Shown in pieces: positions 14,308-33,900 of a DNA stretch of 45,188 bases. The notes below the pieces were generated by a model. The model was not told the origin of the DNA. It saw only the letters and a list, made by a program, of their open reading frames with translations, and did no database searches. The stretch covers positions 1 through 45,188 of the forward strand of contig JALONG010000051.1 in NCBI GenBank assembly GCA_025455065.1. The letters run 5' to 3'. The translations under genes and the position numbers were made by a program. Positions within the stretch are counted from its first letter, which is position 1, and each line of letters begins with the position of its first letter. Source of the stretch: Candidatus Kapaibacterium sp. GTDB lineage: Bacteria > Bacteroidota > Ignavibacteria > Kapaibacteriales > UBA4661.

Positions 14308-14341
14308 CGAATTGATTTCCGACGTTTATTGACCCAACACT

Positions 14342-15506: not shown

Positions 15507-16091
15507 ATGAAACTCAACAGCAAAACTACCACTGTCGTATTATTCATCGTTGGTATGCTTTTGCTACCGCTTTCTGCACAGCAGATGCAACCGTCGTCGG
15601 CACCACAGACTACGATGCCGGAGCATCACGCCACACCCGCTGCCAAGCATGACATCATCGAAGAAGTAAAGGAAATTCACGGTGGGGCGGGACAGTTTGT
15701 TGTGGCGGGATACCGCATGGGGCAACGCGCCGTGCAGCAAGTGGGAGCGCAGCCGGGAGCCTTCACGCTGCTTGTGCCGCACTACTGTCCCTCAGAGGTG
15801 CAGTGGTCCTGCATTGTGGACGGACTGCAAGCAGCCACGCACACGATTTTAGGCAAACTTAATTTGGAGCGTATCGCTGCGGCACAACAGGAAATGCGGA
15901 GCGTTGTTACAAACCGAAAAACAGGAACGCAAGTAATCGTTAGGCTTGCAGAGCCGTTTCTCAAAAAATATTTGAATACGCCTATGGAGCAGTTAGAAAC
16001 AAAAGGGCGCGAAGTCGCATCGTTGAACGACGAAGACATTTTTGTTATCGAAACCACGACCTCAAGCGTTGCGTGGCAGGTGACAGCATAG
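15507..16091 (+). CDS. Exported FmdE-like protein in the hyp operon
   Basis: The 194-residue protein starts with a signal peptide (hydrophobic 9-24, cut near SAQQ), so it acts outside the cytoplasm, unlike the hydrogenase. The rest resembles the FmdE family (formylmethanofuran dehydrogenase subunit E-like): HGGAGQFVVAGYRMG (58-72) aligns with the family motif HGHxCPGxxxGYR, and SCIVDGLQAATHTILGKLNL (101-120) with CxxDAIQxxTGCTxGKGNL. In the first motif the second His and the Cys, usual metal ligands, are Gly here; C94, C102 and H112 remain. It sits between hypD and hypE. A role in metal handling or sensing for the locus is inference; catalysis seems unlikely. The ATG at 15507 was preferred to a longer reading that overlaps hypD. 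Confidence 0.6.
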   Translation: MKLNSKTTTVVLFIVGMLLLPLSAQQMQPSSAPQTTMPEHHATPAAKHDIIEEVKEIHGGAGQFVVAGYRMGQRAVQQVGAQPGAFTLLVPHYCPSEVQWSCIVDGLQAATHTILGKLNLERIAAAQQEMRSVVTNRKTGTQVIVRLAEPFLKKYLNTPMEQLETKGREVASLNDEDIFVIETTTSSVAWQVTA

Positions 16092-16114
16092 CAAACAACA
16101 AAGGTACGTAAATA

Positions 16115-17194: not shown

Positions 17195-17247
17195 AAGCCG
17201 AAAAAAGGCGCTCTGAAGGCAAGCAATTTCCTTCTCTCCAATCACCC

Positions 17248-18381: not shown

Positions 18382-18401
18382 GTGAAGTATAAGTGAAGTA
18401 T
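18371..18401 (+). repeat. 11-bp tandem repeat spanning the stop codon of the NHL gene
   Basis: GTGAAGTATAA is present at 18371-18381 and 18382-18392, with a third partial copy (GTGAAGTAT) at 18393-18401. The first copy contains the last two codons and the TAA stop of the NHL gene, so the stop codon region was duplicated by slippage. Confidence 0.85.
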
Positions 18402-18438
18402 GAACATCAATTACCAACAATGGACATAGGAGTAGTGT

Positions 18439-19134
18439 ATGGAAACAGCGTTTCCGCTTATATTCGCGCTTGTTATGGGCTTTAGTCATGCCTTCGAGGC
18501 AGATCATTTGGTGGCAGTCAGTACGATTGTTACGCGGCGCACGAGTTTTTTTGCGGCTGCAAAGGATGGTCTTTTCTGGGGCTTGGGGCATACCTCCACC
18601 ATTTTCATTATCGGCGCGATAATGATTGTGGGCAAGGTTGTTATTTCCGAACAAACCTTTCACTACCTCGAAGCGTGTGTTGGTGGGATGTTGGTGGTCT
18701 TGGGCGGGGTGCGACTGTGGAAACTGTACCCTCGGCGCAGCAACACTACGGCAGTTACCACACACCTTCAGGCACAGGAAGATTCACACGAACATTCATA
18801 TCAACATTCGCAGGCACATTCGCACGAACACTCGCACTCGCTTGCATATGGCGTTGGTGCGGTGCATGGGCTTGCTGGAAGTGGCGCTTTGGTGCTGCTC
18901 GTGATGACGAATATAGCGGGCGCGGCGGCGAGTATGCTCTATTTGCTCAATTTCGGCATGGGTTCGATGGGTGGTATGCTGGTAGCGGCGGGCGTTTTTA
19001 GCCTGCCATTCTCTAAAAAATTCTCCATGAAACTCCACACCACTGCCTTGTTACCGAAAGCGCTCACGCTGGTATCGGCAATGGCGTGTGTGGGGTACGG
19101 GGTGTGGATTATTATCGAAAATCTTATACAATAA
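18439..19134 (+). CDS. HupE/UreJ-type nickel permease
   Basis: The 231-residue membrane protein should import nickel for the hydrogenase. It has the nickel/cobalt transporter motif GFSHAFEADHLVAV (14-27, with H17, D22, H23), about six hydrophobic segments, a second motif AVHGLAGSGALVLL (141-154), and a cytoplasmic-looking His-rich loop at 117-133 with eight or more His residues. This is one of the few genes here with a clear ribosome site (AGGAG at 18428-18432, six bases before the ATG). Its place at the end of the hyp genes supports nickel rather than cobalt as substrate. Confidence 0.87.
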   Translation: METAFPLIFALVMGFSHAFEADHLVAVSTIVTRRTSFFAAAKDGLFWGLGHTSTIFIIGAIMIVGKVVISEQTFHYLEACVGGMLVVLGGVRLWKLYPRRSNTTAVTTHLQAQEDSHEHSYQHSQAHSHEHSHSLAYGVGAVHGLAGSGALVLLVMTNIAGAAASMLYLLNFGMGSMGGMLVAAGVFSLPFSKKFSMKLHTTALLPKALTLVSAMACVGYGVWIIIENLIQ

Positions 19135-19382: not shown

Positions 19383-19684
19383 TATGCTAAACAAGGATGA
19401 TAATTGCGTAATGTAGATATTTGTTGTGGTTTGACCCCCTAAATATTGGACAAAAAAACCAGGAATTACGGTAACGTTTGGTCTTGCATGGTACGGTAGT
19501 TTTGCTCGGAAAATTCGTCATGCGTAAGGTATGCCGCACTCCAAGCGACTACAACATAACGTTCCATCAAGCATTATCCTTCGCGGATTTCCGTCATAGG
19601 ATATATCGGCATCATCCGCAATATGTATTTTTTTTGGGTACATCTCATATACCTCACTATTCTATCACTCTGTTATTCTCCGTT
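19383..19684. other. Intergenic region at the right edge of the hydrogenase locus
   Basis: These 302 bases hold no credible gene. They contain the IS3-type end at 19427-19452 and otherwise show only AT-rich sequence leading to the zf-HC2 gene. Confidence 0.5.
19427..19452. mobile_element. Solitary IS3-family-like terminal inverted repeat
   Basis: The 26 bases begin TGGTTTGACCCCC and end ATTGGACA. This matches the general form of IS3-family ends (compare IS2, which begins TGGATTTGCCCC and ends CAGACA). No transposase or matching second end is nearby, so it would be a relic. The call rests on resemblance alone. Confidence 0.4.
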
Positions 19685-20047
19685 ATGACACGCCTTCGGT
19701 ATATGCTCGCAAAAATCGTCTTCGGCATTACTCCGCCCTGCGACGATATGACCGTTCTTCTCTCCAAATCTATTGATACACCGCCAACGCTCAAAGAACG
19801 AATGCAAACGGAATTGCATTTATCGTTGTGCGTGGCGTGTAGCCGAGTCCGGACACAATTTGACGTACTGCACGGTGTGGCACGACAAATTTTGGATGAA
19901 GATGTTTCCGGTGCATCCGCAGAGCCGCAAATGCGGAGCATGATGTTGAAATCAACCGCGATTACATTGCCCGAAGATGTCAAGGGGCGACTCCAAAACC
20001 GTATCAATGAAGAACTCAATAATCCTGACAGCAAGCCCGGTCTGTGA
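19685..20047 (+). CDS. zf-HC2-type putative anti-sigma factor
   Basis: The 120-residue protein has the zinc-binding anti-sigma pattern C19 (PPCDDMTVLLSKSID), then KERMQTELHLSLCVAC with H45, C49 and C52, followed by a helical tail. There is no membrane segment, so it is a soluble anti-sigma factor if it is one. The form closely resembles the small zf-HC2 proteins normally encoded directly after TIGR02943-like sigma genes; the sigma gene at 3229 lacks such a neighbour. I chose the ATG at 19685 because the upstream reading from 19478 is AT-rich and not conserved. The next gene starts six bases later. Confidence 0.65.
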   Translation: MTRLRYMLAKIVFGITPPCDDMTVLLSKSIDTPPTLKERMQTELHLSLCVACSRVRTQFDVLHGVARQILDEDVSGASAEPQMRSMMLKSTAITLPEDVKGRLQNRINEELNNPDSKPGL

Positions 20048-20053
20048 GTTTTT

Positions 20054-21040
20054 ATGACGCTCTTAGCAGAAGCATTTCGGATAGTCGTGATATTGTGTTT
20101 GACCGTCATTCCCGCCCTCACAATATCACAGCAAAACCTTGTCTGTATGCCTACCGGCTCGGACACTGTGCGCCTTGCGGACGGAACACGCATTATCTGC
20201 GAAGTGCCGGACAAATCTCTCTCAGTTGGAGAGAATGTTCTTAAAGAGTGGATTCGCCTCAATGCTTGCGCTGTTCGCACCTACTTTGGTGTCTTTCCCG
20301 TGCCGCTCTTGCGCCTCGTTATCAAGCCCGTTCAGGGCAGTAACGACATCAGTTACGGTAACGCGATGCCCGGCTCGCCGCCACTCATCACCGTGTATGT
20401 CGGCACGGAGGCAAATGAGGAAGAATATCGGCAATCGTGGGTGTTGGCGCATGAAATGACCCATTTGGCTTTTCCAACACTTGACCGTACGTATCGGTGG
20501 ATTGAAGAAGGTATGGCTACCTACGTCGAACCGATAGCGCGAGTAATGGCGGGCATTATCACCGAAGAAAGTGTGTGGGAAGAGATGACACGGAAAGCAC
20601 CAACGGCATTTGTACTCGACAGACGCGCTCACAAGGGATTGAACGGTGCGCGTGATTTTGAGCGTGTGTATTGGGGTGGGGCTGTTTTTTGCCTTATGGC
20701 TGACATAGAAATTCGGCAAAAAACCCACAACAAACATTCCTTTCAAAGCACTCTACAAGCCATTCTGCGGCAAGAAGGCACCATGAACACTGACCGTGAT
20801 GTGCTTCGTGTCATGAGGCGAGGAGACAAGGTAATCGGTGTGCGTGTGCTGGAGCCGTTGTACAAACAGTTCGGCACAACCTCCTTCACGCCGAATCTAC
20901 CAAAACTCTGGGCAGATTTGGGTGTTGTCCGCCGAGGCAATACGATTGAACTCCGCAATGATGCTCCTTTGGCAGCGCTTCGGCGGAATATATTTTCCTG
21001 TACCTGCCCTGTATGCATACACCCTACTTCAAAACCATGA
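20054..21040 (+). CDS. Exported zinc metallopeptidase (gluzincin type)
   Basis: The 328-residue protein has an N-terminal signal sequence (hydrophobic ~8-25) and the zinc motif HEMTH (133-137) with a likely third ligand in RWIEEGMATYVEP (E151 or E152), the spacing seen in peptidase-MA-like gluzincins. The C-terminus contains CTCPVC. Substrate is unknown. It starts six bases after the zf-HC2 gene, and its stop codon overlaps the nitrilase start (ATGA), so the three form an operon. Only the fold-level assignment is supported. Confidence 0.7.
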   Translation: MTLLAEAFRIVVILCLTVIPALTISQQNLVCMPTGSDTVRLADGTRIICEVPDKSLSVGENVLKEWIRLNACAVRTYFGVFPVPLLRLVIKPVQGSNDISYGNAMPGSPPLITVYVGTEANEEEYRQSWVLAHEMTHLAFPTLDRTYRWIEEGMATYVEPIARVMAGIITEESVWEEMTRKAPTAFVLDRRAHKGLNGARDFERVYWGGAVFCLMADIEIRQKTHNKHSFQSTLQAILRQEGTMNTDRDVLRVMRRGDKVIGVRVLEPLYKQFGTTSFTPNLPKLWADLGVVRRGNTIELRNDAPLAALRRNIFSCTCPVCIHPTSKP

Positions 21041-22014
21041 GTCCCGAGAATAGCCTTCGCGTCGGCATAGCACAAATTGCACCCGTCTGGTTGCTCCGTG
21101 CCGCCACCATAAAAAAAATTTTAGCAGCTATTGACGAAGCCGCAAAGCAGGAAATACAACTCCTCGCTTTTGGTGAAGCACTTCTGCCCGGGTATCCTTT
21201 TTGGCTGGATGCGACGAATGGCGCACAGTTCGATTCTCCCTTGCAGAAAGATCTTTTTGCGCACTATGCCAAAGAAGCCGTTTGCATTGAACGTGGCGAC
21301 TTGGCAGAAATTTGCGCCGCCGCCCAAAAGTACGCAATGATGATCGTTTTGGGCTGTGTGGAACGTCCTTTGGACAGAGGCGGACACTCACTCTATTGTT
21401 CGCTGGTGAGTATTGGCGCGGACGGCACAATTCTTTCGGTTCACCGAAAATTGATGCCAACCTATGAAGAGCGTTTGGTGTGGGGTATTGGTGATGGACA
21501 TGGTTTACGGACACACACGCTCCATGAATTTACGGTTGGAAGTCTGAATTGCTGGGAAAACTGGCTGCCCTTGCCTCGTGCCGCTTTGTATGCACAGGGC
21601 GAAAACGTTCATATTGCCGCTTGGCCCGGAAGTGAGCGCAATACGAAAGACATTACTCGTTTTTTAGCTTTGGAAGGGCGTTCATACGTTCTGTCTGCAT
21701 CAAGTGTATTGCGCCATGAAGACATCCCCGCCACAATACCGCATAGTGCCTTGCTTCAAGGAGCATTTGCTTCCACTCCAATCATTGCCGACGGTGGTTC
21801 GTGTATCGGTGCGCCCGATGGAACGTGGCTTGTAGAGCCGATTACGGGTGAAGAGCGTATTATTGCTGCTGTGCTTGACATGGAAGAAATTTTGCGTGAA
21901 CGTCAGAATCTTGATAATGTCGGTCATTACTCCCGCCCCGATGTTTTGCAGCTTTCACTCAATGCGGCACGGCAAAGTACGCTGACCATTTCGTCCATTT
22001 TACCCACATCGTAG
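21037..22014 (+). CDS. Nitrilase-family carbon-nitrogen hydrolase
   Basis: The 325-residue enzyme has the catalytic triad E47 (LAFGEALLPGYPFW), K138 (SVHRKLMPTYEERLVWG) and C172 (GSLNCWENWLPLPRAAL). The CWENWLPLPR context and the HRKLMPTYEER motif place it near true nitrilases and cyanide hydratases (branch 1), which turn R-CN into the acid and ammonia, rather than amidases. The start at 21037 overlaps the peptidase stop by four bases; an ATG at 21013 is an alternative. The physiological nitrile is unknown. Confidence 0.88.
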   Translation: MSPENSLRVGIAQIAPVWLLRAATIKKILAAIDEAAKQEIQLLAFGEALLPGYPFWLDATNGAQFDSPLQKDLFAHYAKEAVCIERGDLAEICAAAQKYAMMIVLGCVERPLDRGGHSLYCSLVSIGADGTILSVHRKLMPTYEERLVWGIGDGHGLRTHTLHEFTVGSLNCWENWLPLPRAALYAQGENVHIAAWPGSERNTKDITRFLALEGRSYVLSASSVLRHEDIPATIPHSALLQGAFASTPIIADGGSCIGAPDGTWLVEPITGEERIIAAVLDMEEILRERQNLDNVGHYSRPDVLQLSLNAARQSTLTISSILPTS

Positions 22015-22020
22015 AAATTC

Positions 22021-23268
22021 TCACGCCCCAAGAAAATAGGTTTTCATCATGCCTTTGCCCTTGATGTCTATTTCTCCGCGTTCTTGGAAAGGGAAAAGAT
22101 GATTCAAGCGTTGAAAAACTTCCTCCGTGCAGTGAATACGCCCTGCCTCTCCATGAGATTCCATGCGGCTTGCCGTGTTTACGGTATCTCCCCAAAGGTC
22201 GTATGTGAATTTTTTTGAACCAATCACCCCCGCTACCACCGGACCTATATGCAAGCCAATGCGTAATTCAAGCGGGAAGCCCGTTATCTTGTTCAGTCGC
22301 ATGAGTTCATACTGCATATCCAGGGCTGCTTGTGCAACGGCTTCAGTATGCTCCGAAACTCGCTCCGGCATCCCCCCCACTACCATGTAACAATCACCAA
22401 TCGTTTTGATTTTTTCGAGTGAATGGATGTGTACTATTTCGTCGAAGGTAGAAAAAACACTATCCAGAATCTTAATTACACGGTCCGGTGGAAGCGTTGC
22501 TGCAAGCGGTGTAAAGCCTACCAAGTCAGCAAACATCACCGTTACATCGTCGTAGTGTTCGGCGATGGAGCGCTCCCCGGATTTTAGGCGTTTCGCTATC
22601 GGCACAGGCAAAATATTGAGCAATAATTCTTCCGACCGCTTGAGTTCACGTGCCAAGAGTTTTTCTGCGCTTGCGGTTTGGCGATAAAAAATACTATTCA
22701 CCCCAACAAGTGTGACAAAGAGCATAAGAAGATTCAATGACCGAGAAAATACCAGCACATCGGGTGCTATTGGGTACAGTGCCTTGTCGTCCGTAAAGAA
22801 GATGTCCACAAAGAAAAAAACAGCAACGGAGAACAGCACAATGACAAGACGCTGCCTTGAGGAAATTGTATCGAAGACCAGATACGTTCCGGCGCAAGCA
22901 ATGAACAGCCAAAAATGAACGGCAATTTTTGCCCCTGCTATCCATGAAAAAACAATGATTTGAAGGTAAGCAATTACCAACAAATAGACATTAGCGATGT
23001 TTCTATGGTTTCGGGCATTGAAAAACGGCACAAAGGCAAGCAAAAGCGACAGGGCGAGATTGGCAAGAAGTGATACGACAGCACTATTTTTCCCACTTGT
23101 GTACAAAAAAACTTCGACGATAGCAAACACTATTGAAACCACAGCACCAACCATGGCAATAAAATTCGTTATCCTGACACTGCGCCGCGTGGTGAAATCC
23201 ATTTCATCTTGGACACCGGACTCAAGGAGCCGCGAAAAAAAGAACGATTCAAGAATGCGATAAGGCAT
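22021..23268 (-). CDS. Membrane-bound class III adenylate cyclase
   Basis: The 415-residue protein has about six membrane helices in its first ~200 residues, a short linker (ELKRSEELLLNILPVPIAKRL, quoted in part: SEELLLNILP) and a class III cyclase domain. Metal-binding D248 (MFADLVGFTP) and D292 (IGDCYMVVGG), substrate-specifying K286 and D357 (YDLWGD), and N364/R368 (TVNTASRME) indicate ATP as substrate, so it should make cAMP. An ATG at 23331 would add 21 residues with no visible conservation. It converges on the nitrilase gene with only six bases between stop codons. Confidence 0.9.
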   Translation of the reverse strand: MPYRILESFFFSRLLESGVQDEMDFTTRRSVRITNFIAMVGAVVSIVFAIVEVFLYTSGKNSAVVSLLANLALSLLLAFVPFFNARNHRNIANVYLLVIAYLQIIVFSWIAGAKIAVHFWLFIACAGTYLVFDTISSRQRLVIVLFSVAVFFFVDIFFTDDKALYPIAPDVLVFSRSLNLLMLFVTLVGVNSIFYRQTASAEKLLARELKRSEELLLNILPVPIAKRLKSGERSIAEHYDDVTVMFADLVGFTPLAATLPPDRVIKILDSVFSTFDEIVHIHSLEKIKTIGDCYMVVGGMPERVSEHTEAVAQAALDMQYELMRLNKITGFPLELRIGLHIGPVVAGVIGSKKFTYDLWGDTVNTASRMESHGEAGRIHCTEEVFQRLNHLFPFQERGEIDIKGKGMMKTYFLGA

Positions 23269-23332
23269 GAGACGATTGTTTGGTGAAACTCTATCGGGTT
23301 GTTGCACAGCTCGGAAGTTGTGTGGTAGCACC

Positions 23333-23350
23333 GCAGCAAAAAATTGCTGC
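23333..23350. promoter_or_regulatory. Palindromic hairpin upstream of the cyclase gene
   Basis: GCAGCAA at 23333-23339 and TTGCTGC at 23344-23350 form a perfect 7-bp stem with a 4-base AAAA loop, followed by TTTAT on the plus strand. It sits in the divergent region between the cyclase and the RiPP-like operon and may be an operator or short terminator. Confidence 0.35.
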
Positions 23351-23573
23351 TTTATAGCACCATACTCTTACCATACTCTCACCATAGCAATGGCTTTTCC
23401 CTATCGGTATTAGTCGTGTACAAAGCGTTTTTCCTTACACAAAAAAACAATATTCACTTCAATTTCCGAGATAATACCACAACCGAAAAAAAAATGTGTG
23501 ATAATTCGGCACATCATCTGTAAGGTTTGCTGTATTCAGACGACTAATTATGAAAACACTCTAAGAGACAACA

Positions 23574-23596
23574 ACGGGAACATCCCGTCATTTTTT
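23574..23596 (+). terminator. Leader hairpin with T-run (attenuator candidate) before the precursor gene
   Basis: ACGGGA at 23574-23579 pairs with TCCCGT at 23583-23588 over a 3-base ACA loop, and a run of six T follows at 23591-23596. It lies 26 bases before the precursor start codon and just before its ribosome site, so it could stop transcription within the leader. Confidence 0.5.
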
Positions 23597-23610
23597 ATTC
23601 ATTCTTTTTT

Positions 23611-23615
23611 AGGAG
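23611..23615 (+). promoter_or_regulatory. Strong ribosome binding site of the precursor gene
   Basis: AGGAG lies six bases before the ATG at 23622. Most genes in the window lack such a site, so this suggests strong translation of the small precursor and fixes its start. Confidence 0.75.
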
Positions 23616-23621
23616 TTCTTT

Positions 23622-23864
23622 ATGAATCGCCAAGATTTTTCTAAACTTATGGTCGGTGCTGCGGTTGCAGGCTTGATTTCCGGCTCTACGCTTGTAGCTC
23701 AAGAAAAAGCAGAGCAGAAGCAAGAAAAGAAAGCTGAAACCAAAGCCGAGAAGAAAAAAGACAGCTGCAAAGGCAAAGACGGCTGCAAAGGTAAAGACAG
23801 CAAGACCGATAAGAAAAAAGACAGTTGCAAAAGCAAAGACGGCTGCAAAGGTCATTCAGCATAA
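23622..23864 (+). CDS. Cys/Lys-rich secreted RiPP-like precursor (bufferin/HvfA type)
   Basis: The 80-residue protein has a signal peptide (hydrophobic ~9-26, cut near LVA-Q) and a mature part made almost only of Lys, Glu, Asp, Ala, Gly, Ser and four Cys. KKKDSCKGKDGCKG (44-57) and KKKDSCKSKDGCKG (64-77) are near-identical repeats 20 residues apart, giving cysteines 49, 55, 69 and 75. Short exported peptides with repeated Cys-Lys/Gly motifs next to DUF692 and DUF2063 genes are precursors of bufferins and HvfA-type metallophores, in which an iron oxidase converts Cys into copper-binding thiooxazole or oxazolone/thioamide groups. The operon here fits that; the exact motif differs from the EGKCG of HvfA. 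Low-complexity chance reading is unlikely given the strong ribosome site and operon context. Confidence 0.82.
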   Translation: MNRQDFSKLMVGAAVAGLISGSTLVAQEKAEQKQEKKAETKAEKKKDSCKGKDGCKGKDSKTDKKKDSCKSKDGCKGHSA

Positions 23865-23943
23865 CCATTCCATGGATGAACGCCGTGATTCATGCTGCTT
23901 TTAACGCACGGCAATTCATCAGATTGTTGATGTTATACAAGAC

Positions 23944-24053
23944 GGAGAACAAACATTGTTCCTTCATTCCTTCGGAATAATACTTTAAGGGGCAAAACAG
24001 AGTTTACGCATAATACTCCACAACTGAGGTTGTGACGGGCAAGTTTGTTCTCC
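23944..24053 (+). other. Multibranched inverted-repeat element between precursor and downstream genes
   Basis: GGAGAACAAAC at 23944-23954 pairs exactly with GTTTGTTCTCC at 24043-24053. Inside are two smaller stems: ATTCC/GGAAT (23966-23970 with 23974-23978) and CACAAC/GTTGTG (19 bases of 24019-24034 with a TGAG loop). The whole can fold as a three-way junction. There is no gene in it. It may be a MITE-like element or an RNA structure that sets the ratio of precursor to enzymes. Confidence 0.6.
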
Positions 24054-24075
24054 ATTGTATTGGCGATAATTGTCT

Positions 24076-24678
24076 ATGACACCGCACGAAAAATTTCTCA
24101 ATAGCAATATGCTTTATCCATCACGACCGGAAGACACAAGTCCAATAAAAGCAGGAGCAAAAGTTCCGTCCATCATTCTGAACAATGAGTTGGGCGTGCC
24201 TGTCAATGTCAATATCAGTTTGCGAGAAAAACCCGCTGTACTGATTTTTTATCGGGGTGGCTGGTGTCCCTACTGTAATTTGCAAATGAGTTCACTGAGA
24301 GCTGTGGAGGAAGAGTTTTACAATCTTGGGTTCAATATCTTCGGCATCAGCCCCGACCGACCGGAAAAATTATCCGAGAGCCGCGATAAACACAATTTTC
24401 GCTATGTACTGCTCTCTGACAGTTCCATGCGGGTTTGTTCGGCATTTGGTTTGGCGTATAAAGTTCCCGACGATGAAGTTATCATGCTTCGAGATAAATT
24501 CAACTCCGACATTGAAGGCAATTCCGGTGAGAAACATCATCTCCTCCCTGTTCCGGCTGTCTATCTCGTGGATAACAAAGGAATTTTCGGCTTTCAGTAT
24601 TCTAACCCCGATTTTACCGTTCGCATGGATTCGCAGGAACTCTTGCTCATTGCACGGAAACACCGTGTGGCGGCATAA
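24076..24678 (+). CDS. Peroxiredoxin-like AhpC/TSA-family protein
   Basis: The 200-residue protein has a thioredoxin fold with the motif FYRGGWCPYCNLQMSSL, giving a C64-x2-C67 active site as in the PRX-like2 group of the AhpC/TSA family. It has no signal peptide, so it acts in the cytoplasm. It likely reduces peroxides or disulphides. It lies between the precursor and the DUF692 gene (51 bases before the latter), so it may keep precursor cysteines reduced or protect the oxygen-using iron enzyme; that is inference. The start at 24076 (ATG) was preferred to a TTG six bases earlier. Confidence 0.85.
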   Translation: MTPHEKFLNSNMLYPSRPEDTSPIKAGAKVPSIILNNELGVPVNVNISLREKPAVLIFYRGGWCPYCNLQMSSLRAVEEEFYNLGFNIFGISPDRPEKLSESRDKHNFRYVLLSDSSMRVCSAFGLAYKVPDDEVIMLRDKFNSDIEGNSGEKHHLLPVPAVYLVDNKGIFGFQYSNPDFTVRMDSQELLLIARKHRVAA

Positions 24679-24729
24679 AACCAAACCTTTGAGGATACTA
24701 TTTTTCAAACACCTAACGCGACAAAAACT

Positions 24730-25659
24730 ATGCTCGCAAATCGTTGGAATCTGCCTGATTTAGGCTTTGGTGTCGGACTTCGTTCGGTGCATTACGACCA
24801 CATCCTTGAGCATTTCCCGCCTGTGGATTGGTTCGAGGTGATTTCCGAAAATTACCTTTCTCGCGGCGGGTATTCATGGTATGCACTGCAAAAAATTCGG
24901 GAGCGCTACCGCATTGTTACGCACGGTGTGTCGCTTTCGATTGGCAGCACCGACCCGCTCAATTTCACGTACTTGGAACGCTTGAAACGTCTGGCTGACG
25001 ACATGGATACACCTTGGGTGAGCGACCACATTTGCTGGACGGGCGTGAACGGGCGGAACACCCACGATTTATTGCCGATTCTCTACACCGAAGAAACGCT
25101 ACGGCACGTCGTGGAACGGATTCGCACGATTCAGGACTTTTTGGGGCGGCGTGTGGCATTGGAAAATGTTTCGACGTATGTGGAATTTGCCGCTTCCACC
25201 ATGCCCGAATGGGAATTTATCGCACGTATGGCGGAAGATGCTGATTGCGGCTTGCTTCTGGATGTGAACAACGTGTATGTCAGTTCCTTTAATCACGGGT
25301 TCGACCCCTACGAATTTATTGATGCCATTCCCGCTGACCGCATCTGCCAATATCACCTCGCCGGACACACCAACAAAGGAACGCATATTATTGACACCCA
25401 CAGCGACCATGTTGTAGATGAAGTATGGGAACTCTACCGGTACGCCTATGGGCGCTCCGGCGGACGAGCGACGCTGCTTGAATGGGATGAGGATATTCCA
25501 CCCTTTGAAGTTGTCCATGCGGAAGCGCTCAAAGCACGGAATTATCGGGATGCTGTGCCTTTGGTGCGCGGCAAAAACTCCAACGCACTTGAATCTCCCA
25601 ACGAGCACAAACCTCACAACACCGATGTTCTACGACGCTTTGTAGAAGAATATGCCTAA
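24730..25659 (+). CDS. DUF692 multinuclear non-heme iron oxidase (BufB/HvfB/MbnB-like)
   Basis: The 309-residue TIM-barrel enzyme starts with LGFGVGLRSVHYDHIL and has the metal-site residues of the family: H65 (VTHGVSLSIG), H100 (WVSDHICW), E145 (ALENVS), D178 with the NN pair (LLLDVNNVYVSS), H209 and H213 (YHLAGH), D222 and H224 (DTHSDHV) and E251 (LLEWDEDIP). Such enzymes (MNIOs) hold two or three irons and use O2 to remodel cysteines of RiPP precursors. It overlaps the DUF2063 gene by eight bases. With the Cys-rich peptide at 23622 as presumed substrate, this is the key enzyme of the operon. Confidence 0.93.
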   Translation: MLANRWNLPDLGFGVGLRSVHYDHILEHFPPVDWFEVISENYLSRGGYSWYALQKIRERYRIVTHGVSLSIGSTDPLNFTYLERLKRLADDMDTPWVSDHICWTGVNGRNTHDLLPILYTEETLRHVVERIRTIQDFLGRRVALENVSTYVEFAASTMPEWEFIARMAEDADCGLLLDVNNVYVSSFNHGFDPYEFIDAIPADRICQYHLAGHTNKGTHIIDTHSDHVVDEVWELYRYAYGRSGGRATLLEWDEDIPPFEVVHAEALKARNYRDAVPLVRGKNSNALESPNEHKPHNTDVLRRFVEEYA

Positions 25660-26584
25660 TACCACCATCACAACGGGCAACAGCCATGCGCCCACGAAAT
25701 TAGCAACCATGAAATTAGCAACCTTCCAGCAATGGATGGTTTCGGTTGTTACACATTTTGGGACTGACGAAGAAGCGTGGAATTCCGAGGAAGCCACAAC
25801 CGCACTCAGCCACGCACGAGCATTAGAAAATATTATTCCAACCAAAGACCTCAACGGCTACGAGCGGATAGGCATTTATCGGCGAATGTATTTTCTCAGA
25901 ATGCGTGATGCTCTGACGGTAGATTTCCCCGCAGTGCAAGAGGCTGTCGGCACGAAAGCATTTGAAGATATTGTGGAGCAGTATTGTACGCAATGTCCTT
26001 CGACATCCTATACGCTGAACGATTCAGGGCTGAAATTCCCTGCATTCATGCGTTCTTCCGATATTCCCGGCAAAGAATTTCTCGCCGAACTTGCCGAACT
26101 CGAACTTGACATAGCAAGCGTGATGGAAGCGGAAGAAGTACCACCGCTCACCGTCGAGGAAATCATGTCCGTTCCTCCTGAAGCATGGGCGAATGCACGT
26201 TTTACGCCTGTTGCTGCTCTTAAAATTTCTGCCTTTCGCTATCCTGTTTATGAGTATTTCAGAGAAGTCGAGGCAATGACCGCACCGGAAACAACAGCAC
26301 AACAACGAATGGAAGAAGGTTCAAACTATTGCTACATCCATCGCTCTGAATACAGCACGCGCCATTATCCTTTGAGTAAAGAAGAATATCTCCTTCTGGC
26401 TGCACTCATAGGCGGTGTACCGCTCCAAGAAGCATTTGATACCGTTCAAGACCTCCTGCCAAACTCTCCTTCTTCGACCAACCAAACCACGATTGAACCA
26501 GAGGTGGAGCAGTTCCAAATCCAAATTAGGGAGCGATTTCAAGAATGGATGCAGATGGGCGTTTTTGCTGCCATACAACATTGA
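25652..26584 (+). CDS. DUF2063 partner protein (BufC/HvfC-like)
   Basis: The 310-residue protein is the usual partner of DUF692 enzymes and is thought to recognise the precursor and present it to the oxidase. The N-terminal DUF2063 domain is recognised by YERIGIYRRMYFLRMRDAL, VDFPAVQEAVGTKAF and the CPSTSYTLNDSG...FPAFM pattern within residues ~55-135. The C-terminal ~170 residues resemble the beta-rich recognition part of HvfC-like proteins. The start codon lies inside the last codons of the DUF692 gene (eight-base overlap), showing tight coupling. Confidence 0.88.
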   Translation: MPNTTITTGNSHAPTKLATMKLATFQQWMVSVVTHFGTDEEAWNSEEATTALSHARALENIIPTKDLNGYERIGIYRRMYFLRMRDALTVDFPAVQEAVGTKAFEDIVEQYCTQCPSTSYTLNDSGLKFPAFMRSSDIPGKEFLAELAELELDIASVMEAEEVPPLTVEEIMSVPPEAWANARFTPVAALKISAFRYPVYEYFREVEAMTAPETTAQQRMEEGSNYCYIHRSEYSTRHYPLSKEEYLLLAALIGGVPLQEAFDTVQDLLPNSPSSTNQTTIEPEVEQFQIQIRERFQEWMQMGVFAAIQH

Positions 26585-26637
26585 TTGATAGTTTGATAGT
26601 GAATTGATGCGACTGGTCAGGTTTCATCACAATTTCA

Positions 26638-26743
26638 TCCACGAATTGCACGAATCTTCACAAATGAAGAATTTGACCCATCTTCTTTGGCGAAAAGACA
26701 CAGTACTGCTCAAGAATTCGTGCCAATTCGTGCGATTCGTGGA
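26638..26743. repeat. Inverted-repeat element between DUF2063 and DoxX genes
   Basis: TCCACGAATTGCACGAAT at 26638-26655 and ATTCGTGCGATTCGTGGA at 26726-26743 are inverted matches with one mismatch, and another ATTCGTG copy lies at 26716-26722. The 106 bases can form a long hairpin and hold no gene. ATTCGTG-type repeats look like dispersed intergenic repeats. Confidence 0.6.
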
Positions 26744-26842
26744 CATTTTTTTCGCTATGGTATTTGAAGCCTCGTATCGTTTTCAGAAAGTGCATTGAAA
26801 TATGACAACTATGTTTTTCTTCACTCTATTTCCGTAGATGCT

Positions 26843-27397
26843 ATGGTTATTTCTTCTTCGCTTTTTCGCACGGTTTCATCGGTGTACTCCCGTTTGACCA
26901 GTGGTTTGAATTATGGTCAGGATGCAGTATTGCTGATAATGCGCTTGTATTGGGGGTGGCAGTTTTTTCAAACGGGGAAAGGAAAACTTGCGAATTTTGA
27001 ACGCACCGTTGAATTTTTTACCGGCTTGAATATCCCCTTTCCTACGGTGAATGCAGCAATGGCAGGAACAGCAGAGTGCCTTGGAGGTTTGTTGTTGCTC
27101 TTGGGTTTGTGTTCGCGCATAGTGAGTTTGCAGTTAATGGTAGTGATGGTCGTTGCATATCTGACTGCTGATGCCGAAGCGGTGTCGCATATTTTTTCCA
27201 ACCCCGATGAATTTACTTCTGCCTCACCGTTCCTCTTTTTGCTGACGGCAATTATTGTCGCCGTTTTTGGCGCAGGACGCATTTCCTTTGATGAAGTATT
27301 GCGGCGGTATTTTTCTGCACAAAAACATGATGAATTGAACGGCGCAGTCTCTCATAGCGCTGATGCTCACACGCTTTCTACGGCAAAGAACTTGTAA
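26843..27397 (+). CDS. DoxX-family membrane protein (BufD-like)
   Basis: The 184-residue protein has four hydrophobic helices and the DoxX pattern LLIMRLYWGWQFFQTGKGKL, then AGTAECLGGLLLLLGL and a final PFLFLLTAIIVAVFGAGRIS. DoxX proteins are frequent fourth members of DUF692/DUF2063 operons, with an unproven role in redox or quinone chemistry at the membrane. I chose the ATG at 26843; a TTG at 26795 would add 16 residues. A 258-base gap with an inverted repeat separates it from the DUF2063 gene. Confidence 0.85.
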   Translation: MVISSSLFRTVSSVYSRLTSGLNYGQDAVLLIMRLYWGWQFFQTGKGKLANFERTVEFFTGLNIPFPTVNAAMAGTAECLGGLLLLLGLCSRIVSLQLMVVMVVAYLTADAEAVSHIFSNPDEFTSASPFLFLLTAIIVAVFGAGRISFDEVLRRYFSAQKHDELNGAVSHSADAHTLSTAKNL

Positions 27398-27472
27398 CGT
27401 GCCGGATTTTCCGCACAGGCTTTTTCCGCACACGTATTGTGCAACTCCTGTTTTTGCAAAAACTTCTTCACT

Positions 27473-29809
27473 ATGAATGTCACTATTCGTCAAAAAATAC
27501 TTCTGGTTGCTGCTCTGCCAACAATAGCGTTGATGGTGTTTGCAGCAAATACCATTCGGCAATCCTTGGCGACGATGAACCGTGCGAATGAGTTTGTGAC
27601 GATGGCTCGTCTTGCAGAGCGTGCCGGAGCCGTCGCCGATGCTCTTGCGTTTGAAAATACTATCGCCAACGGATTGGTCGGCAGTAAAACATCAAGGTTT
27701 TCCGACGAATGGAAACAGGCACAGACCAAGAGTGATTCCGCATTGGCGGTGTTTCATCAGATGCTGGATTCTCTTGCCAATACCGAAGAGCAGCAGATAC
27801 TTCACGATGTGGGTTTGACTTCCCGCCATATACAAGGCTTTGCAGAACTGCGCTCCGGCGTACAATCACTCTCCACCACGACGGAAGAAGTGCGCCGACA
27901 ATACACAACAAAGACGCAGCCTCTGGTGCATATCATCCGCTCGACCTCAAGATTTTCAGCACAAGAGCCGTCGCTCGCACTGCCGTTTACCGCGCTTTTT
28001 CAACAAACAGAAAAGCAACGTCGCGCCTCACAACTACAAGCCTTAATTTTGAGCGCAACCGCATCGAAGACCATTTCCGGCGCGGAATTAAAAGAAATGT
28101 ATGAACTGCGCTCCGAAGAAGCTGTTTTTGCACGCGAGGCAACATTTTGGGTGGATTCTGCTCTTACGCAAGCGGTATCTGAGCAGCTACGACGTGAGCG
28201 GCGAGAGCCGGAACAAGAGTATGGACGTTTTATTGAAATGCTGATACAAGTTTCTGATTCCGATAGCCTGAGCCTCTCTTCGGAACAGTGGCTGCACATA
28301 TCACAGACCTACATCAACACCCTCATGGCAGAAGAGAAGGCACTGCACGAGGAAATTCGCCGTAAAGCGGCACGACTGCAAGAATCCAATGCACGGACAC
28401 TGCACGGTGTTCTGCTTGTGAGCATCGCTATCCTTCTGATTCTCACCGGAATTTCCTTTACGATTGTACGCTCCATTACACGCCCCTTAGCCACGTTGGT
28501 TCTTCATACGCAGAGAGTAGCCGAAGGGGATTTTGCAGCAGTTCCGGCAATCCATTCGCACGATGAAGTCGGCAGATTGGCGCAAGCCTTTCAGGAGATG
28601 ACCAAACGCATTGGTGCTGCTCTTGCAGAAAGCCGTGCGGCACATCAAGAAACCGAGGTAGCACGCGAGGCAGCCTTGCAGGCACAGCGCACCGTTCAAG
28701 AAAGAGAAGAATTGCTACGGCGGCATATTGAACATCTTTTGGCAGCAATGGAACGCTTTGCGCAAGGGGACTTAACGGCAACGGTATCATTGGCGACGCT
28801 GCAACATGAGACGAGAAGTCCGGCGCTGATAACACTACCCCAACACCACTCCACCACCACCAAACACCAAAGCGATATTGAACGACTATTTTGGGGTTAC
28901 AACCAATCCCTGGAAGGGATGCGCAAGGCTATTGAGCGCACCGGTGAAGCAGTGAGCAAAGCGGCAGAAATCGGCGACGAAATACTTATGCAAACAGACG
29001 ATTTGGCAAATGGGGCGTATAACCAAAACACACACGCCCTAGAAATTGCCGGAGCGGTCGAAGAACTTTCCCGCACCATTGCCGAAAATACCCGCCAGAC
29101 GATGATTGCCGCCGACGAAGCCCGTGCGACCGGCAAAGAAGCTGAATCAGGCGGCGCGGTCATTACTCGCACCATTGCCAGCATGACGGACATTGGCGAT
29201 ATGGTGTTGTCGCTGACATCCACCATTGAGCGACTTGGCGAAAGTGGGAATCATATTGGCGAGGTCATTGAAATAATCTACGGCATCGCCGACCAAACAA
29301 ACCTTCTCGCGCTTAATGCTGCCATCGAAGCAGCACGGGCGGGCGAATCAGGACGAGGTTTTGCGGTCGTTGCCGACGAAGTGCGAAAACTTGCCGAGCG
29401 GACGCAAAACGCAACGAAAGAAGTAGGGCGTATTATTGAAAATATCCTCAACGATACCGAAGAAGCGGTACAGATTGCGCGTCAAGGCTCCGAAAATGCA
29501 CAAGAGAGCGCAAAAGCCGCCGCAGAATCTTCGACCGCGCTCCACCGCATTATTGACCGAACAACCGTTGTTTCTGATATTATCGCAGCCTTGTCCGCCG
29601 CAGGAGAGCAACAAGCAGGGGTTGCCGAGGACATTGCACAACGGATGGCAAACATTAGCCGCATCACACAGTCGTCATCCGATGCAGCGCAGCGTATCAC
29701 CGAAACAGTACAGACCATGGATTCGCTTATGCTGACCGTACAAACAATGGTTCGTGGATTTCAGACAGACGCGGCACAGAATTATTCAAACTCACAAGTT
29801 CGGGCGTAA
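27473..29809 (+). CDS. Methyl-accepting chemotaxis protein with NIT-like sensor
   Basis: The 778-residue chemoreceptor has a first membrane helix at ~8-26, a helical extracytoplasmic domain of ~285 residues that resembles the nitrate/nitrite-sensing NIT domain (paired helical bundles, [20 protein letters not shown]), a second helix at ~313-333, a HAMP domain ([21 protein letters not shown], quoted in part: [13 protein letters not shown]), a second HAMP-like segment ([12 protein letters not shown]) and a long signalling coiled coil. The hairpin tip [20 protein letters not shown] starts at N610. It couples to CheA/CheW, not encoded here. It lies 75 bases after the DoxX gene; functional connection is unknown. 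Confidence 0.9.
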
Positions 29810-29862
29810 GGGCAAATACACAATACCTTCCTATACCACCACCCTAACCACACGAAGTAATA

Positions 29863-29995
29863 CCAATTTGAGTTGATAACTGTGCAAAAAAAAATCCGGC
29901 TTCAGTGGCACAGACATTCTTTTCTGTGCGAGTATTTATGCTGCTTCCAGAGAAAAGCATTGAAAAAATAATGCACAATCTTCAACGTAAATTGG
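29863..29995. mobile_element. MITE-like element with TA duplication upstream of the IS630 relic
   Basis: The 133 bases begin CCAATTTGAGTTGA and end TCAACGTAAATTGG. Including flanks, the ends match as imperfect inverted repeats over about 27 bases (22 matches), with TGTGCA conserved on both inner sides. TA lies on each side (29861-29862 and 29996-29997), the target duplication typical of IS630/Tc1-type transposition. A broken IS630 transposase gene lies 100 bases downstream. Confidence 0.6.
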
Positions 29996-30043
29996 TATAA
30001 GTGGTCAAAACCAATTCGGTAAACTGTTGGAGAATTGTTCTCG

Positions 30044-30069
30044 GAACGGCAAATTGCGTTATGCCGTTC
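30044..30069 (+). other. Hairpin in the leader of the IS630 transposase
   Basis: GAACGGCA at 30044-30051 pairs with TGCCGTTC at 30062-30069 across ten bases, 27 bases before the transposase start codon. Such leader hairpins often block read-through expression of transposases. Confidence 0.45.
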
Positions 30070-30095
30070 TTGTTTAATTGATAATAGAGTTTCGC

Positions 30096-30768
30096 ATGAA
30101 GTTTGTAACGCCCTTGAATGAAGCCACGCGAGAGCAATTACGGTCTATCGTTTCCTCTGACGCACCATTCCATAAACGCCGCCGTTCTCGTGCCATTCTC
30201 TTGAGCAACCAAGGCTTCAAAGTGGATATCATCGCAAGTATTTTCGAGGTGACCCGCGATACGGTCAGTGCTTGGATAGACCCTTGGGAAGAAGAAGCGT
30301 TTGACGGTCTGGAAGATACACCGTTACTTCATCCGCAGCAAAGCAACCGAGCGCGTCTGGTGGTGGAAAAGAAATTGAAGAAATCGCTCTCGCCGAAAAC
30401 CATTCGCCGCCACTTGCAAGAGTCCGGTTACAGCTATCGTCGCATTTGGCAGGACATTTGCCGATACGCCATTGAAAACAGCGTATCAGCGTTCAACAGC
30501 GCGAATGGTTGAACAGACCATCAACGATGACTGTATCATTGCTGCGGTGGAGCGCTATATTACTCGTTTGGTACGTTCAGGCATGAACAAACCTATTGGT
30601 TTAGTTTGGGATAACGCCTCAAGTCATCACAGTGCGCAGATGGATGAAGCCAGAGAGCGACGGAAAAAACGGGGGGTAGAAATTGAATTTTTACCACCCT
30701 ACTCACCAACACTCAACCGCATCGAAATCGTGTGGCAGCGCGTCAAGCACCTGTGGCTACCTCCTTAA
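30096..30768 (+). pseudogene. Broken IS630-family transposase
   Basis: The first part (30096-30512) encodes the N-terminal helix-turn-helix: RRRSRAILLSNQGFKVDIIA, TRDTVSAWIDPWEEEAFDGL and SPKTIRRHLQESGYSYRR. It ends in a changed frame at ~30480. In another frame (to 30768) follows the end of the DDE domain with LVWDNASSHHSAQ (second catalytic D) and EFLPPYSPTLNRIEIVWQRVKHLW (catalytic E). The stretch with the first catalytic D, about 60-80 residues, is missing, and the C-terminus stops early. The element is inactive through deletion and frameshift. Confidence 0.88.
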
Positions 30769-30922
30769 AAAAATCGTTCTTAGCTGTCGCTGAATCTCGA
30801 AATCAATATGCTCCAATTTACCCCCGCAACGTAGTTTCTTCCTTCATTTGCCGTTTGAACTGCTTTTTTGTATTTTGTGTCATACAAAAAATGTGTTTTC
30901 TCTTGAATTGCCCTTTGTTGCC

Positions 30923-33900
30923 ATGCACACGCCGCTCTTTTCGCCGAAAGCTCTCCAAAAACAGTATGATTCTCTTCCCGAACCCTCAGAAAGCGTTCTC
31001 CTTCGCGCTCAAGAATGGAAGCATATGATTGAGAACCGCAGCGTTTTGGCTGCCAAAGAAACCGAACTCGACGGGCAGTTTCTCACGCACTTTTTCAGGG
31101 ATATTCTCGGCTTTAGCGATAACCGTGCTTCGGGCGCGTGGACACTCACCAAAAATCAAACCTCACACGCTGATAGTTCCGTGCCGGATGGTGTGCTGGG
31201 CTTTTTTGCTATGCAAGGCAATGAAAGCGTTTCCCGTGTTCATGCCGTGATTGAACTCAAAGATGCCTCGCACGACCTCGACAAAGCACAAAAACGCCAG
31301 AATGACAAGCGAAGCCCCGTTGAACAGGCATTCAGCTATGCGCCGAAAGCAGGCGGAAATTGCAAATGGGTAATTGTCTCGAATTACCTCGAACTGAGGC
31401 TGTACCACCACACCGACCAAGCCAAATACGAGCGCTTTGAACTTTCGCGCCTCACCGAACCGCAGGAAATGAAACGGTTGCTTTTTCTCATGCACCGCGA
31501 TAATCTCTTGCCATCATCTGAAAGCGAGATCACATCACGCACCGAAGAACTTTTTGCGGCACGGGTGAAGGAAGAAGACCGCATCACCAAAGAGTTTTAC
31601 GCCGAGTACAAACAAGCCCGCAGCGACCTTTTTAAGCACCTCTGCGCGGCGAATCCAACCGCACCGGAATTGCTCGTGCTGAACAAAACGCAAAAGCTGC
31701 TCGACCGCGTAATTTTTGTGTGCTTTGTAGAAGATAAGGAAATCATTCCGCGTCGCACCTTTCGGAGGTTGTTGGATGATGTGAAACGGGACAAATTCAA
31801 CCGCAGCGACACGAAAATTTGGGATAGAGTGCGCGGCTTGTTTGCTGCTATCAACGAAGGGTATCCCGACGAACATATCAACAAGTTCAACGGCGGCTTG
31901 TTTGCTGATGATGCCGAGTTGGACGCGCTTGTCATCAAGGACAGTGTGCTGGAGCATATCATCGCGCTGGAAAAGTACGATTTCGACAGCGACCTGAACG
32001 TGAACATTTTGGGGCATATTTTCGAGCAGTCCATCACGGACATCGAAGAACTGAAAGCCCAAATCGCAGGCACAGCGCACGATGCAAGCAAAGGCAAGCG
32101 CAAAAAAGACGGCATTTTCTACACGCCCGAATACATCACGCGCTACATCGTGCAAGAGACCGTTGGCGGGTATTTGGAAGAGCGCAAGGCAGAATGTGGC
32201 TTTGAGACGCTTCCACCAATCACGGATGCCGATTGGCAAAGCATCAAGCGCGACAAGCGGAACGTGCTCACCTACAACAAAACCATCGAACGGCACATTG
32301 CCGCGTGGACGGCATACCGCGAGAAACTCGCTGCCGTCAAGGTCTGCGACCCTGCCTGTGGGAGCGGTGCATTTTTGAATCAGGTGTTTGATTTCCTCTA
32401 TGCCGAAGGGCAGCGCGTAAACGCTGAATTGGCGCGGTTGCAACTGGGGCAAACCACCACGAGCGACCTCCAAAAAGACATTCTGCAAAACAACATCTAC
32501 GGCGTGGATGTGAACCCCGAAAGCGTCGAAATCACGCGGCTTTCGCTGTGGCTGAAAACCGCAGACCGCTCGAAAGAACTCACCTCGCTTGACCACACCA
32601 TTCGCTGCGGGAACTCGCTCGTGGATGACCCGAATGTTGCCGGAGAAACGGCGTTTGATTGGGCGGCGGCGTTTCCTGAAGTCATTCAGCAGGGCGGCTT
32701 TGATGTGATTGTGGGGAATCCGCCGTATGTACGGCAGGAACTCTTGCCGGAAGCAATGAAGGCTTTTCTTGCCAAAAACTACACTGTTGCTCACGGAAGC
32801 GCGGATTTGTATGCGTACTTTATGGAGCGTAGCGTGAACCTCTTGAAAAATGGCGGTTTATACAGCATCATCGTTGCAAATAAGTGGATGCGGGCAAGCT
32901 ACGGCGAACCGCTCCGACGCTGGATAAAAACCCAATCGCTGGAAGAAATCGTTGATTTTGGCGATTTACCTGTGTTCGAGGATGCTATTGCGTACCCGTG
33001 TGTGCTGCGTGTTCGCAAAGGCGCACCGCAAGAGGAGTTTCGGGCAGCAAACATCACAACGCTTGATTTTGAGAGCCTTGCAGCGGAAGTAGAGCGCACA
33101 CGGTTTGCTGTGAGTGTGGCGCAATTACAAGATGAAGGATGGTCGCTTGCAAACAAGGCAGTGAGCGATGTTCTGGCAAAACTCCGTGCAGCAGGTACGC
33201 CGCTTGGCGAGTATGTACAGGGGAAAATTTATCGCGGCGTTCTGACAGGCTTAAACGAAGCATTTGTGGTAGATGCCGCCACCCGCGCCCGTTTGATAGC
33301 GGAAGATCCACGAAGTGCCGACGTGTTGAAGCCGTTTCTTGCGGGGCGAGATGTGAAGCGGTATGCAACGCCGGAGGTGGAGAATTATTTGATTTTTGCG
33401 CGTCGTGGAATTGATATTGCTCAATATCCCACAATAGAACGCCATTTATCGCAGTTCAAAGACCAACTTATGCCTAAGCCACGCGATTGGCAAGGTGCAG
33501 AATGGCAAGGACGCAAGGCAGGAAGTTACAAGTGGTATGAATTGCAGGATGCCGTAGATTACTTTGCGGAATTTGAAAAGCCGAAAATTATCGTCCCTGC
33601 AATCGTACAAAGCGCATCATACCTTGTGGATTCGAGTGGTTTTTACTCCAACGACAAAACGAGCATTATCGGCGTGGATGATAAAGCCTTGCTTGCGGTG
33701 CTGAACTCCAAAGCAACGGATTTTTTCATGCACAGCATCGCAGCCACGAAACAAGGCGGTTTCTACGAATACAAGCCGATGTATCTGGTGCAGCTTCCCA
33801 TTCCGCCCATCACCAACGCTGAAGCATTGACCGCGCACGTGGAAACAATGATAGCGACAAACAAAGCCCTCGCCGACCTCCGCAAGCGAGTCCTGACGGT

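Follow-up and report, generated by a model that had tools for sequence, protein, structure and literature searches.

Captophorin pathways, in which a precursor peptide is encoded together with a multinuclear-iron enzyme of the MNIO (DUF692) family, have been described with three groups of precursors: those with a DUF2282 domain, those with Lys-Cys (EGKCG) motifs and those with Cys-Lys motifs (PMC13097082). Among bufferins, the Buf_6/12Cys precursors carry 6 or 12 conserved Cys (PMC12452194). No paper on bufferins of the Ignavibacteria was present among the literature matches listed, and the main texts of two landscape papers do not contain the word Ignavibacteria; the motif described here may stand in their supplementary tables. 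We have analyzed a 45,188-nucleotide stretch of Candidatus Kapaibacterium sp. DNA (contig JALONG010000051.1; hereafter the window), in which a short Cys-rich peptide is encoded upstream of an MNIO. The genome comprises 5.6 Mb in 131 contigs and its nearest named relatives are Ignavibacteria metagenome-assembled genomes (MAGs). This Ignavibacteria gene set very probably yields a modified, secreted, Cys-rich peptide of the kind that takes up excess copper, and we consider it likely that the locus encodes a captophorin pathway of the Cys-Lys type (a BufA2-like bufferin pathway) whose core is reduced.

The Cys-Lys captophorin class is itself already known. What is new is a lineage-restricted variant of its repeat, termed here the KDGC form, and a possible regulon of an extracytoplasmic function (ECF) sigma factor. 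The original prediction for this DNA, made from the letters alone, had proposed an 80-residue peptide with two KKKDSCK[G/S]KDGCKG units (Cys 49, 55, 69 and 75), followed by a DUF692 enzyme, an overlapping DUF2063 partner and a DoxX protein. This arrangement was borne out by the open reading frames (ORFs), their coordinates and matches to all three Pfam profiles (PF05114, PF09836 and PF07681). The core genes are as follows.

23622 to 23864, plus strand: precursor of a ribosomally synthesized and post-translationally modified peptide (RiPP), 80 residues, with a signal-peptide-like N-terminal leader, a Lys-rich linker and the core units CKGKDGCKG and CKSKDGCKG (nonsynonymous substitution, dN, far below synonymous substitution, dS; MNIO-linked motif; weak BufA2 match)
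24730 to 25659, plus strand: BufB-type MNIO maturase (PF05114, E 1.3e-109; NF050167, 360.3 bits)
25652 to 26584, plus strand: DUF2063/PME1 partner with a C-terminal domain like a RiPP recognition element (RRE) (PF09836, E 2.7e-16; fold)
26795 to 27397, plus strand: DoxX/HvfX-like membrane protein, start uncertain (PF07681, E 2.3e-20)

The precursor is a real gene under purifying selection, since its orthologues within the genus show dN far below dS. Three more genus genomes encode such orthologues, which have a common leader start (MNRQDFSKLMVGAAVAG) and in which none of the four Cys is missing. The six pairwise comparisons give dS values of 0.60-1.19 and dN values of 0.05-0.16 (1.04 and 0.053 for the window and L011), and leader and core are conserved together. 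The putative signal peptide, judged by eye only, has K8 followed by a hydrophobic stretch from residue 9 to about residue 26. The Cys are spaced 5, 13 and 5 residues apart and each of the four is followed by Lys, as is characteristic of the Cys-Lys group. No Pfam family scores above its cut-off on this peptide.

Within the class, the motif is tied to the enzyme wherever it was found. DNA coding for CK[GS]KDGCK[GS] occurs at 16 sites in eight of 294 class genomes, which belong to two class families (f1 and f24), and a reversed control pattern occurs at none; by coordinates, all 16 sites fall inside MNIO-linked precursors. A pattern search of 395 phylum genomes recovered the motif in G000 and G005 only, and the class-wide count is used here because the phylum sample omitted several genomes later found to bear the motif. 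This linkage bears on the idea that the Cys-rich product stays unmodified, working as a metal-binding or redox peptide, and that the MNIO acts on something else, an idea that gains some ground from the sizeable share of bufferin precursors reported apart from MNIO genes (PMC12452194). We regard it as very improbable, as the coding motif was not found apart from an MNIO in the 294 genomes, leader and core are conserved as one, and the window genome contains a single MNIO match. In four (G011, G178, G221 and G239) of the 20 class genomes in which an MNIO match occurs, and in five of 34 MNIO loci (L019, L021, L026, L028 and L024, the last at a contig edge), no Cys peptide was seen upstream of the MNIO.

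The MNIO passes the bufferin-maturase model NF050167 (cut-off 310 bits) and remains under the cut-offs of the HvfB model (266.9 bits, cut-off 360) and the methanobactin MbnB model TIGR04159 (60.1 bits, cut-off 325). Its AlphaFold model (pLDDT 85.7) aligns with TglH (8hi7, Z 30.5), 3BWW (Z 29.4) and MbnB (Z 27-28). Residues H65, H100, E145, D178, N181, H209, D222 and H224 are invariant in alignments of 50 and 18 rows. By alignment these eight correspond to MNIO metal sites, and they are the presumed iron ligands. For HvfB, the metal-site residues named are N175, D242 and H244 (PMC13419390).

In a tree of 46 MNIOs, the window enzyme groups with those of L011 and L012 (100/100), surrounded by other Cys-Lys enzymes. 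The DUF2282-linked enzymes stand apart (97/99), as do the Lys-Cys enzymes plus L009 on a long branch (100/100). The tree and the residue counts leave out L055, L056 and L057, which are of another MNIO type (29-33% identity), one of the two MNIOs in L040 (the second), short fragments in L008 and L037, L010 (a 36-residue piece) and the duplicate loci L001-L006. Published Cys-Lys MNIOs (BufB2) have Asp at the site of FonB Phe250 and have lost the conservation of Arg16 (PMC13097082). The corresponding residue, which follows catalytic Asp253 and is E254 in the window, is Glu in 8/8 KDGC-type loci and Phe in 5/5 Lys-Cys loci. Among 16 other Cys-Lys loci it is Asp in eight, Glu in three, Ala in four and Gly in one; the five loci with long precursors have Ala (four) or Asp (one), the six DUF2282 loci Ala (three), Thr (two) or Ser (one), and six loci with no precursor seen Glu (two), Asp (two), Ala (one) or Phe (one), L026 being counted among the last for its 817-residue ORF without a Cys-Lys motif. 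Additionally, the second position of the Arg pair is Ser or Thr in KDGC enzymes and Arg or Lys in Lys-Cys enzymes.

These features separate the locus from the HvfA/oxazolin, fontiphorin and gonophorin (Lys-Cys captophorin) systems, with which it shares a repeat-bearing secreted precursor and an MNIO-PME1-DoxX gene order. Given that Lys-Cys operons also exist in the class (L050-L054), one could suppose an HvfA/oxazolin-type pathway with an altered repeat in place of EGKCG. However, Lys comes after all four Cys and KCG is absent from the window precursor (P0001), the MNIO has E254 and not Phe, its Arg pair reads RS where all five Lys-Cys loci have RR or RK, and the separate Lys-Cys branch and the low HvfB score agree with this. 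Such a pathway is therefore extremely improbable, and membership in the HvfA family is rejected on motif, MNIO residue and tree; of the earlier label "bufferin/HvfA-like", only the bufferin half can be retained. The BufA1 (DUF2282) bufferins resemble the locus in operon layout, and sigma factors are reported in their clusters (PMC12452194), but the window precursor has no DUF2282 match at E up to 1 and the BufA1 enzymes form a separate MNIO clade.

Comparison with the BufA2/Buf2 system (Cys-Lys captophorins; NF050166/NF050167) shows a closer likeness. Both have a signal-peptide-like precursor, an MNIO, a DUF2063 protein and DoxX, C-x5-C pairs with CKG, a BufB-type MNIO over the cut-off and an acidic residue after the catalytic Asp. 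They differ in that the window precursor is Lys/Asp-rich, with four Cys instead of 6 or 12, lacks a counterpart to the third Cys of the canonical blocks and has Asp where these blocks have Asn between the Cys, and in that the window MNIO has Glu and not Asp at the specificity site. A further comparison is offered by locus L013 of the Bacteroidetes MAG SZAS-91 (G032, same order), whose precursor has a very similar leader (MNGKDFGKLMIGAAVAGLISGG versus MNRQDFSKLMVGAAVAGLISGS), a Lys-rich linker and two CKG blocks, but has the canonical HACKGMNECKGKGGC and SCKGKNACKGKGGC with six Cys and scores 42.9 bits with BufA2, under the cut-off of 60; the locus search found no DUF2063 or DoxX match at L013. 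Peptides upstream of the MNIO in related loci range from canonical HxCxGxNxCKG blocks to the KDGC form of the window, with 3 Cys in L014, 6 in L047 and L045, 8 in L048 and 7 counted in the L046/L085 precursor, which is truncated by a contig end; a 5-residue spacing within the pair recurs. Because the sequences are low in complexity, homology of the core blocks can only be inferred, and on this reading the window core keeps the C-x5-C pair but not the Cys that stands third in a canonical block.

Residue order, the position of the MNIO in the tree, the acidic specificity residue and the existence of a relative with canonical six-Cys motifs together lead us to take the motif for a reduced Cys-Lys form. 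Consequently, as far as sequence can tell, CK[G/S]KDGCKG is a lineage-restricted variant of the published Cys-Lys (BufA2-like) group and does not constitute a new class of chemistry. The precursor motif had been put forward as new; it does differ from EGKCG, as stated then, and the tree, the residue and the relative speak against a class of its own.

A number of observations weigh against this assignment. The window precursor scores only 16.8 bits with NCBIfam BufA2 (NF050166; E 0.0057, cut-off 60) and has four Cys where six or twelve are expected, and its genus orthologues reach 13.7, 17.3 and 20.7 bits. The weak match is not distinctive, as another model gives 16.2 bits on the same peptide and a secretion model exceeds BufA2 on the L011 precursor (16.6 versus 13.7 bits). 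Two f24 precursors score 20.6 and 19.2 bits with BufA2 and two more have no match at E 0.01; in all four a collagen-like model, itself far under its cut-off, scores higher, and the L014 precursor has no BufA2 match. KDGC-type MNIOs are close to one another in the tree but do not strictly form one clade, since L013, with weak support, branches within them. For the Cys-Lys group the residue published is Asp, whereas the window and all seven other KDGC loci have Glu, which is acidic but not Asp, and 5 of the 16 other Cys-Lys loci have Ala or Gly in this column. Finally, the partner protein reaches 39 of the 142 bits required by NCBIfam HvfC (NF050145), and the DoxX protein 78.6 bits with HvfX, for which the cut-off is 80.

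The DUF2063 gene overlaps the MNIO gene by 8 bp and its product matches PF09836 at 60 bits (cut-off 27.2). As no solved homologue was convincing by sequence (best E 0.38), a fold search was made, in which the AlphaFold model (pLDDT 87.3) aligned with 3DEE (Z 14.9, root-mean-square deviation 3.9, 197 residues aligned) and with the partner chain of TglHI (Z 13.1); RRE proteins scored lower. The gap before doxX (26637-26744) contains an inverted pair of a AATTCGTGCGATTCGTGGAC-like repeat (2 matches versus 0.02 expected).

The original prediction had overlooked a neighborhood of regulatory genes and a common promoter-like element, which, with other non-coding elements around the precursor, are located as follows.

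3175 to 3840, plus strand: ECF sigma factor, candidate regulator, located near the operon in G005 and G001
19478 to 20047, plus strand: zinc-finger anti-sigma-like gene (H-x3-C-x2-C), with its true start probably near 19685
19523 to 19551, plus strand: third copy of the promoter-like element, one mismatch, before the anti-sigma-like gene
20054 to 21040, plus strand: HExxH metalloprotease-like protein, found directly before the precursor in 3/3 genus relatives
22021 to 23331, minus strand: MASE7 and adenylate/guanylate cyclase protein, having the promoter-like element in common with the operon
23411 to 23439, minus strand: divergent copy of the element (N16), exact, before the cyclase gene
23519 to 23546, plus strand: promoter-like element TGTAAGG-N15-CGACTA, before the precursor
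23574 to 23588, plus strand: terminator-like hairpin and T tract, after the promoter-like element and ahead of the ribosome-binding site
23988 to 24012, plus strand: non-coding element AGGGG-N10..14-TTACGCATA, between the precursor and the next gene

In relatives, such regulatory genes lie next to the operon. G005 has, in order, genes for ECF, AraC, DUF417, a histidine kinase, the zinc-finger anti-sigma protein, HExxH, precursor, MNIO and DUF2063, where the contig ends, and a single contig of G001 holds the ECF, anti-sigma, HExxH and precursor genes together with the beginning of the MNIO gene. G007 reads, from the contig start, DUF417, redoxin, anti-sigma, HExxH, precursor, MNIO, DUF2063 and DoxX, with its ECF gene on another contig. 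In f24, an ECF gene lies upstream of the precursor in three loci (G196, G300 and G291) and an anti-sigma homologue is present in G300; G196 and G291 have a 304-312-residue protein between MNIO and DUF2063, and the precursor of G283 lies at the edge of a contig. The window has these neighbors too, though scattered: 128-3840 encodes AraC, DUF417, kinase and ECF, and 19478-21040 encodes anti-sigma and HExxH, after which come nitrilase and cyclase genes and then the precursor. An H-x3-C-x2-C motif is common to the anti-sigma proteins, with zf-HC2 over its cut-off in the G001 orthologue only (window, 14 of 22.2 bits). The HExxH proteins keep H133-E134-H137 and E151-E152 in 4/4, and the three members scanned have no Pfam match. 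An ECF orthologue is found in 4/4 MNIO-bearing and 1/4 MNIO-free genus genomes (n=8; one-sided Fisher p about 0.07), a co-occurrence that is suggestive only. This linkage differs from Buf2 clusters as described, since PMC12452194 assigns sigma/anti-sigma genes to Buf1 and not to Buf2 clusters. Window 4305-19134, which separates the ECF cluster from the anti-sigma gene, holds NiFe-hydrogenase-type structural and maturation genes (ORFs named by eye) and a weak, below-cut-off match to a NicO-like transporter.

The element TGTAAGG-N14..16-CGACTA precedes the precursor exactly in 4/4 genus loci and with one mismatch in G008. Before the anti-sigma gene it is exact in G002, with one mismatch each in G001 and the window and two in G005; it was not found before the G007 anti-sigma gene (best, five mismatches). 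The window genome has three exact copies (reversed control, one), two of them back to back at 23411-23546, and blastn-alignable DNA of L011 begins at 23583, downstream of the element. Of 400 random 300-nucleotide stretches of the window, six held a site with no or one mismatch; the window itself has three such sites. Over nine genomes the nine exact hits comprise four before precursors, one before an anti-sigma gene, one before a cyclase gene, one before a cytochrome b561 pair in G001 and two without a clear target (G001:C258, inside a long opposite ORF, and G000:C51).

Three results count against ECF control of the operon through this element. The nine exact hits, in 5/9 genomes, compare with five for the reversed control, and therefore the placing of the element and not its number carries weight. 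It was not seen in four f9 and f24 loci tested (best 5-6 mismatches), and the ECF homologues of G008 (39% identity), G032 (35%) and G007 lie off the operon's contig. The ECF type and autoregulation are putative.

The b561 pair deserves mention in its own right. In G001 (L067:833-2370, G001:C273), an exact element lies about 50 nucleotides before a cytochrome b561/molybdopterin-oxidoreductase (Oxidored_molyb) pair, and homologues of both (79 and 73% identity) occur downstream of doxX in G007 (L077:7296-8897, G007:C111), there without the element. Oxidored_molyb genes are reported in a few EGKCG clusters (PMC12452194).

The original prediction also placed a peroxiredoxin inside the operon.

24070 to 24678, plus strand: peroxiredoxin-like protein with a CPYC motif (PF00578, AhpC-TSA, E 1.5e-22), between precursor and MNIO; its true start may be ATG 24076

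The gene is present in the window, and as a core operon part it is ruled out, being missing there in three genus relatives. Its closest homologues, at 73% in G008 and, in pieces, at 63-65% in G005, are on contigs other than that of the MNIO, and the precursor-MNIO gap in genus relatives is about 160 to 400 bp; for these reasons we do not count it as a core part.

Peroxiredoxin-like genes in the loci of the window genome and G007, the ECF/zinc-finger anti-sigma type of regulator, the molybdopterin-oxidoreductase pair behind the element in G001, and literature that links DoxX to oxidative or sulphur stress and reports MerC fusions all raise the question of whether the pathway, though built as proposed, serves thiol or oxidative-stress defense or the handling of a metal other than copper. 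No copper gene was recognized among the annotated neighbors, which likewise tells against a copper role. On the other side, characterized MNIO-PME1 products generally bind Cu (PMC13097082) and the peroxiredoxin is not conserved between precursor and MNIO, and we judge this alternative role to be rather unlikely. We read the operon as a captophorin/bufferin system for copper or redox stress, with copper as its presumed metal and an ECF factor as its putative regulator.

A more specific proposal, which we put forward tentatively and with appreciable doubt, is that the window belongs to a lineage-specific captophorin family. In this family every Cys would lie in a repeated C-K-G-K-D-G-C-K-G cassette, leaving none spare for disulphides, with the number of cassettes varying (3 to 8 Cys in relatives). 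The family would sit in a dedicated ECF/zinc-finger anti-sigma regulon that also includes the HExxH protease, possibly for processing of leader or core, the molybdopterin-oxidoreductase pair in one relative and the nucleotide cyclase in the window.

The Cys-Lys captophorin pathway proposed above might operate as follows. Going by conserved sites and synteny, a stress signal would free the ECF sigma factor from the zinc-finger anti-sigma protein, and the freed factor would transcribe the precursor operon from TGTAAGG-N15-CGACTA. The DUF2063 partner, going by its family and its fold, would then bind the signal-peptide/leader region and pass the precursor to the MNIO; Junger et al., as cited in PMC13419390, reportedly describe the Sec signal as a leader. 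The multinuclear-iron MNIO would oxidize the Cys of each C-K-(G/S)-K-D-G-C-K-G unit, 5-thiooxazoles being the most likely products, and in analogy to Asp251 of BufB2 the acidic E254 would contact the Lys that follows each Cys. The modified peptide would presumably be exported by Sec. Its two paired C-x5-C sites could take up Cu(I) or a different soft metal, and DoxX would help at the membrane.

The window peptide would represent a natural, minimal, repeat-based Cys-Lys substrate, useful for defining what BufB enzymes need around the Cys, and the Glu/Asp versus Phe switch at the specificity site allows the published specificity model to be tested directly. Through the ECF/anti-sigma linkage, the signal that induces Buf2-like pathways outside Pseudomonadota becomes approachable, and the HExxH protein near the operon is a candidate for a processing step. 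Should the regulon reading prove true, the locus would represent a complete circuit of sensing, making and processing around an MNIO metallophore.

Several minor observations concern the non-coding DNA and related loci. The hairpin search found one hairpin against 0.6 expected in shuffles; a similar GC stem and T tract is seen by eye in 4/4 genus loci, and the hairpin at 23574-23588 is a possible attenuator. The AGGGG element occurs once, in the same place, in each of four operon-bearing genus genomes (window, L011, L012 and L010) and in 0/6 others, with the caveat that a reversed control also gives four hits in 3/10 genomes. No RNA family reached gathering level in window 20000-31000, and no sigma-70-type promoter was found in 23330-24080.

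In f24, the 304-312-residue protein (L081:5300-6214, L084:2882-3820) has a signal-peptide-like start, a GCSDAG-x-CTV motif and, by eye, the look of an outer-membrane barrel; the L081 protein has no Pfam match. L007, L025, L031, L033 and L049 encode long (about 200-340 residues) Cys-rich putative substrates upstream of the MNIO. They contain C-x-G/S-x-N-x-C-x-x-x-GGC-like motifs, match no Pfam family above its cut-off and are possibly protein-sized MNIO substrates. The 817-residue ORF of L026 (Ramlibacter, L026:4483-6933) has its MNIO domain only at the C terminus (517-776), preceded by about 500 residues in which neither a Pfam match at E 0.01 nor a Cys-Lys motif was found, and its true start may be internal. 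In L021, L023, L027, L028, L029, L032 and L043, mostly from Alphaproteobacteria, the MNIO lies within ORFs of 551-658 residues that are likely MNIO-partner fusions.

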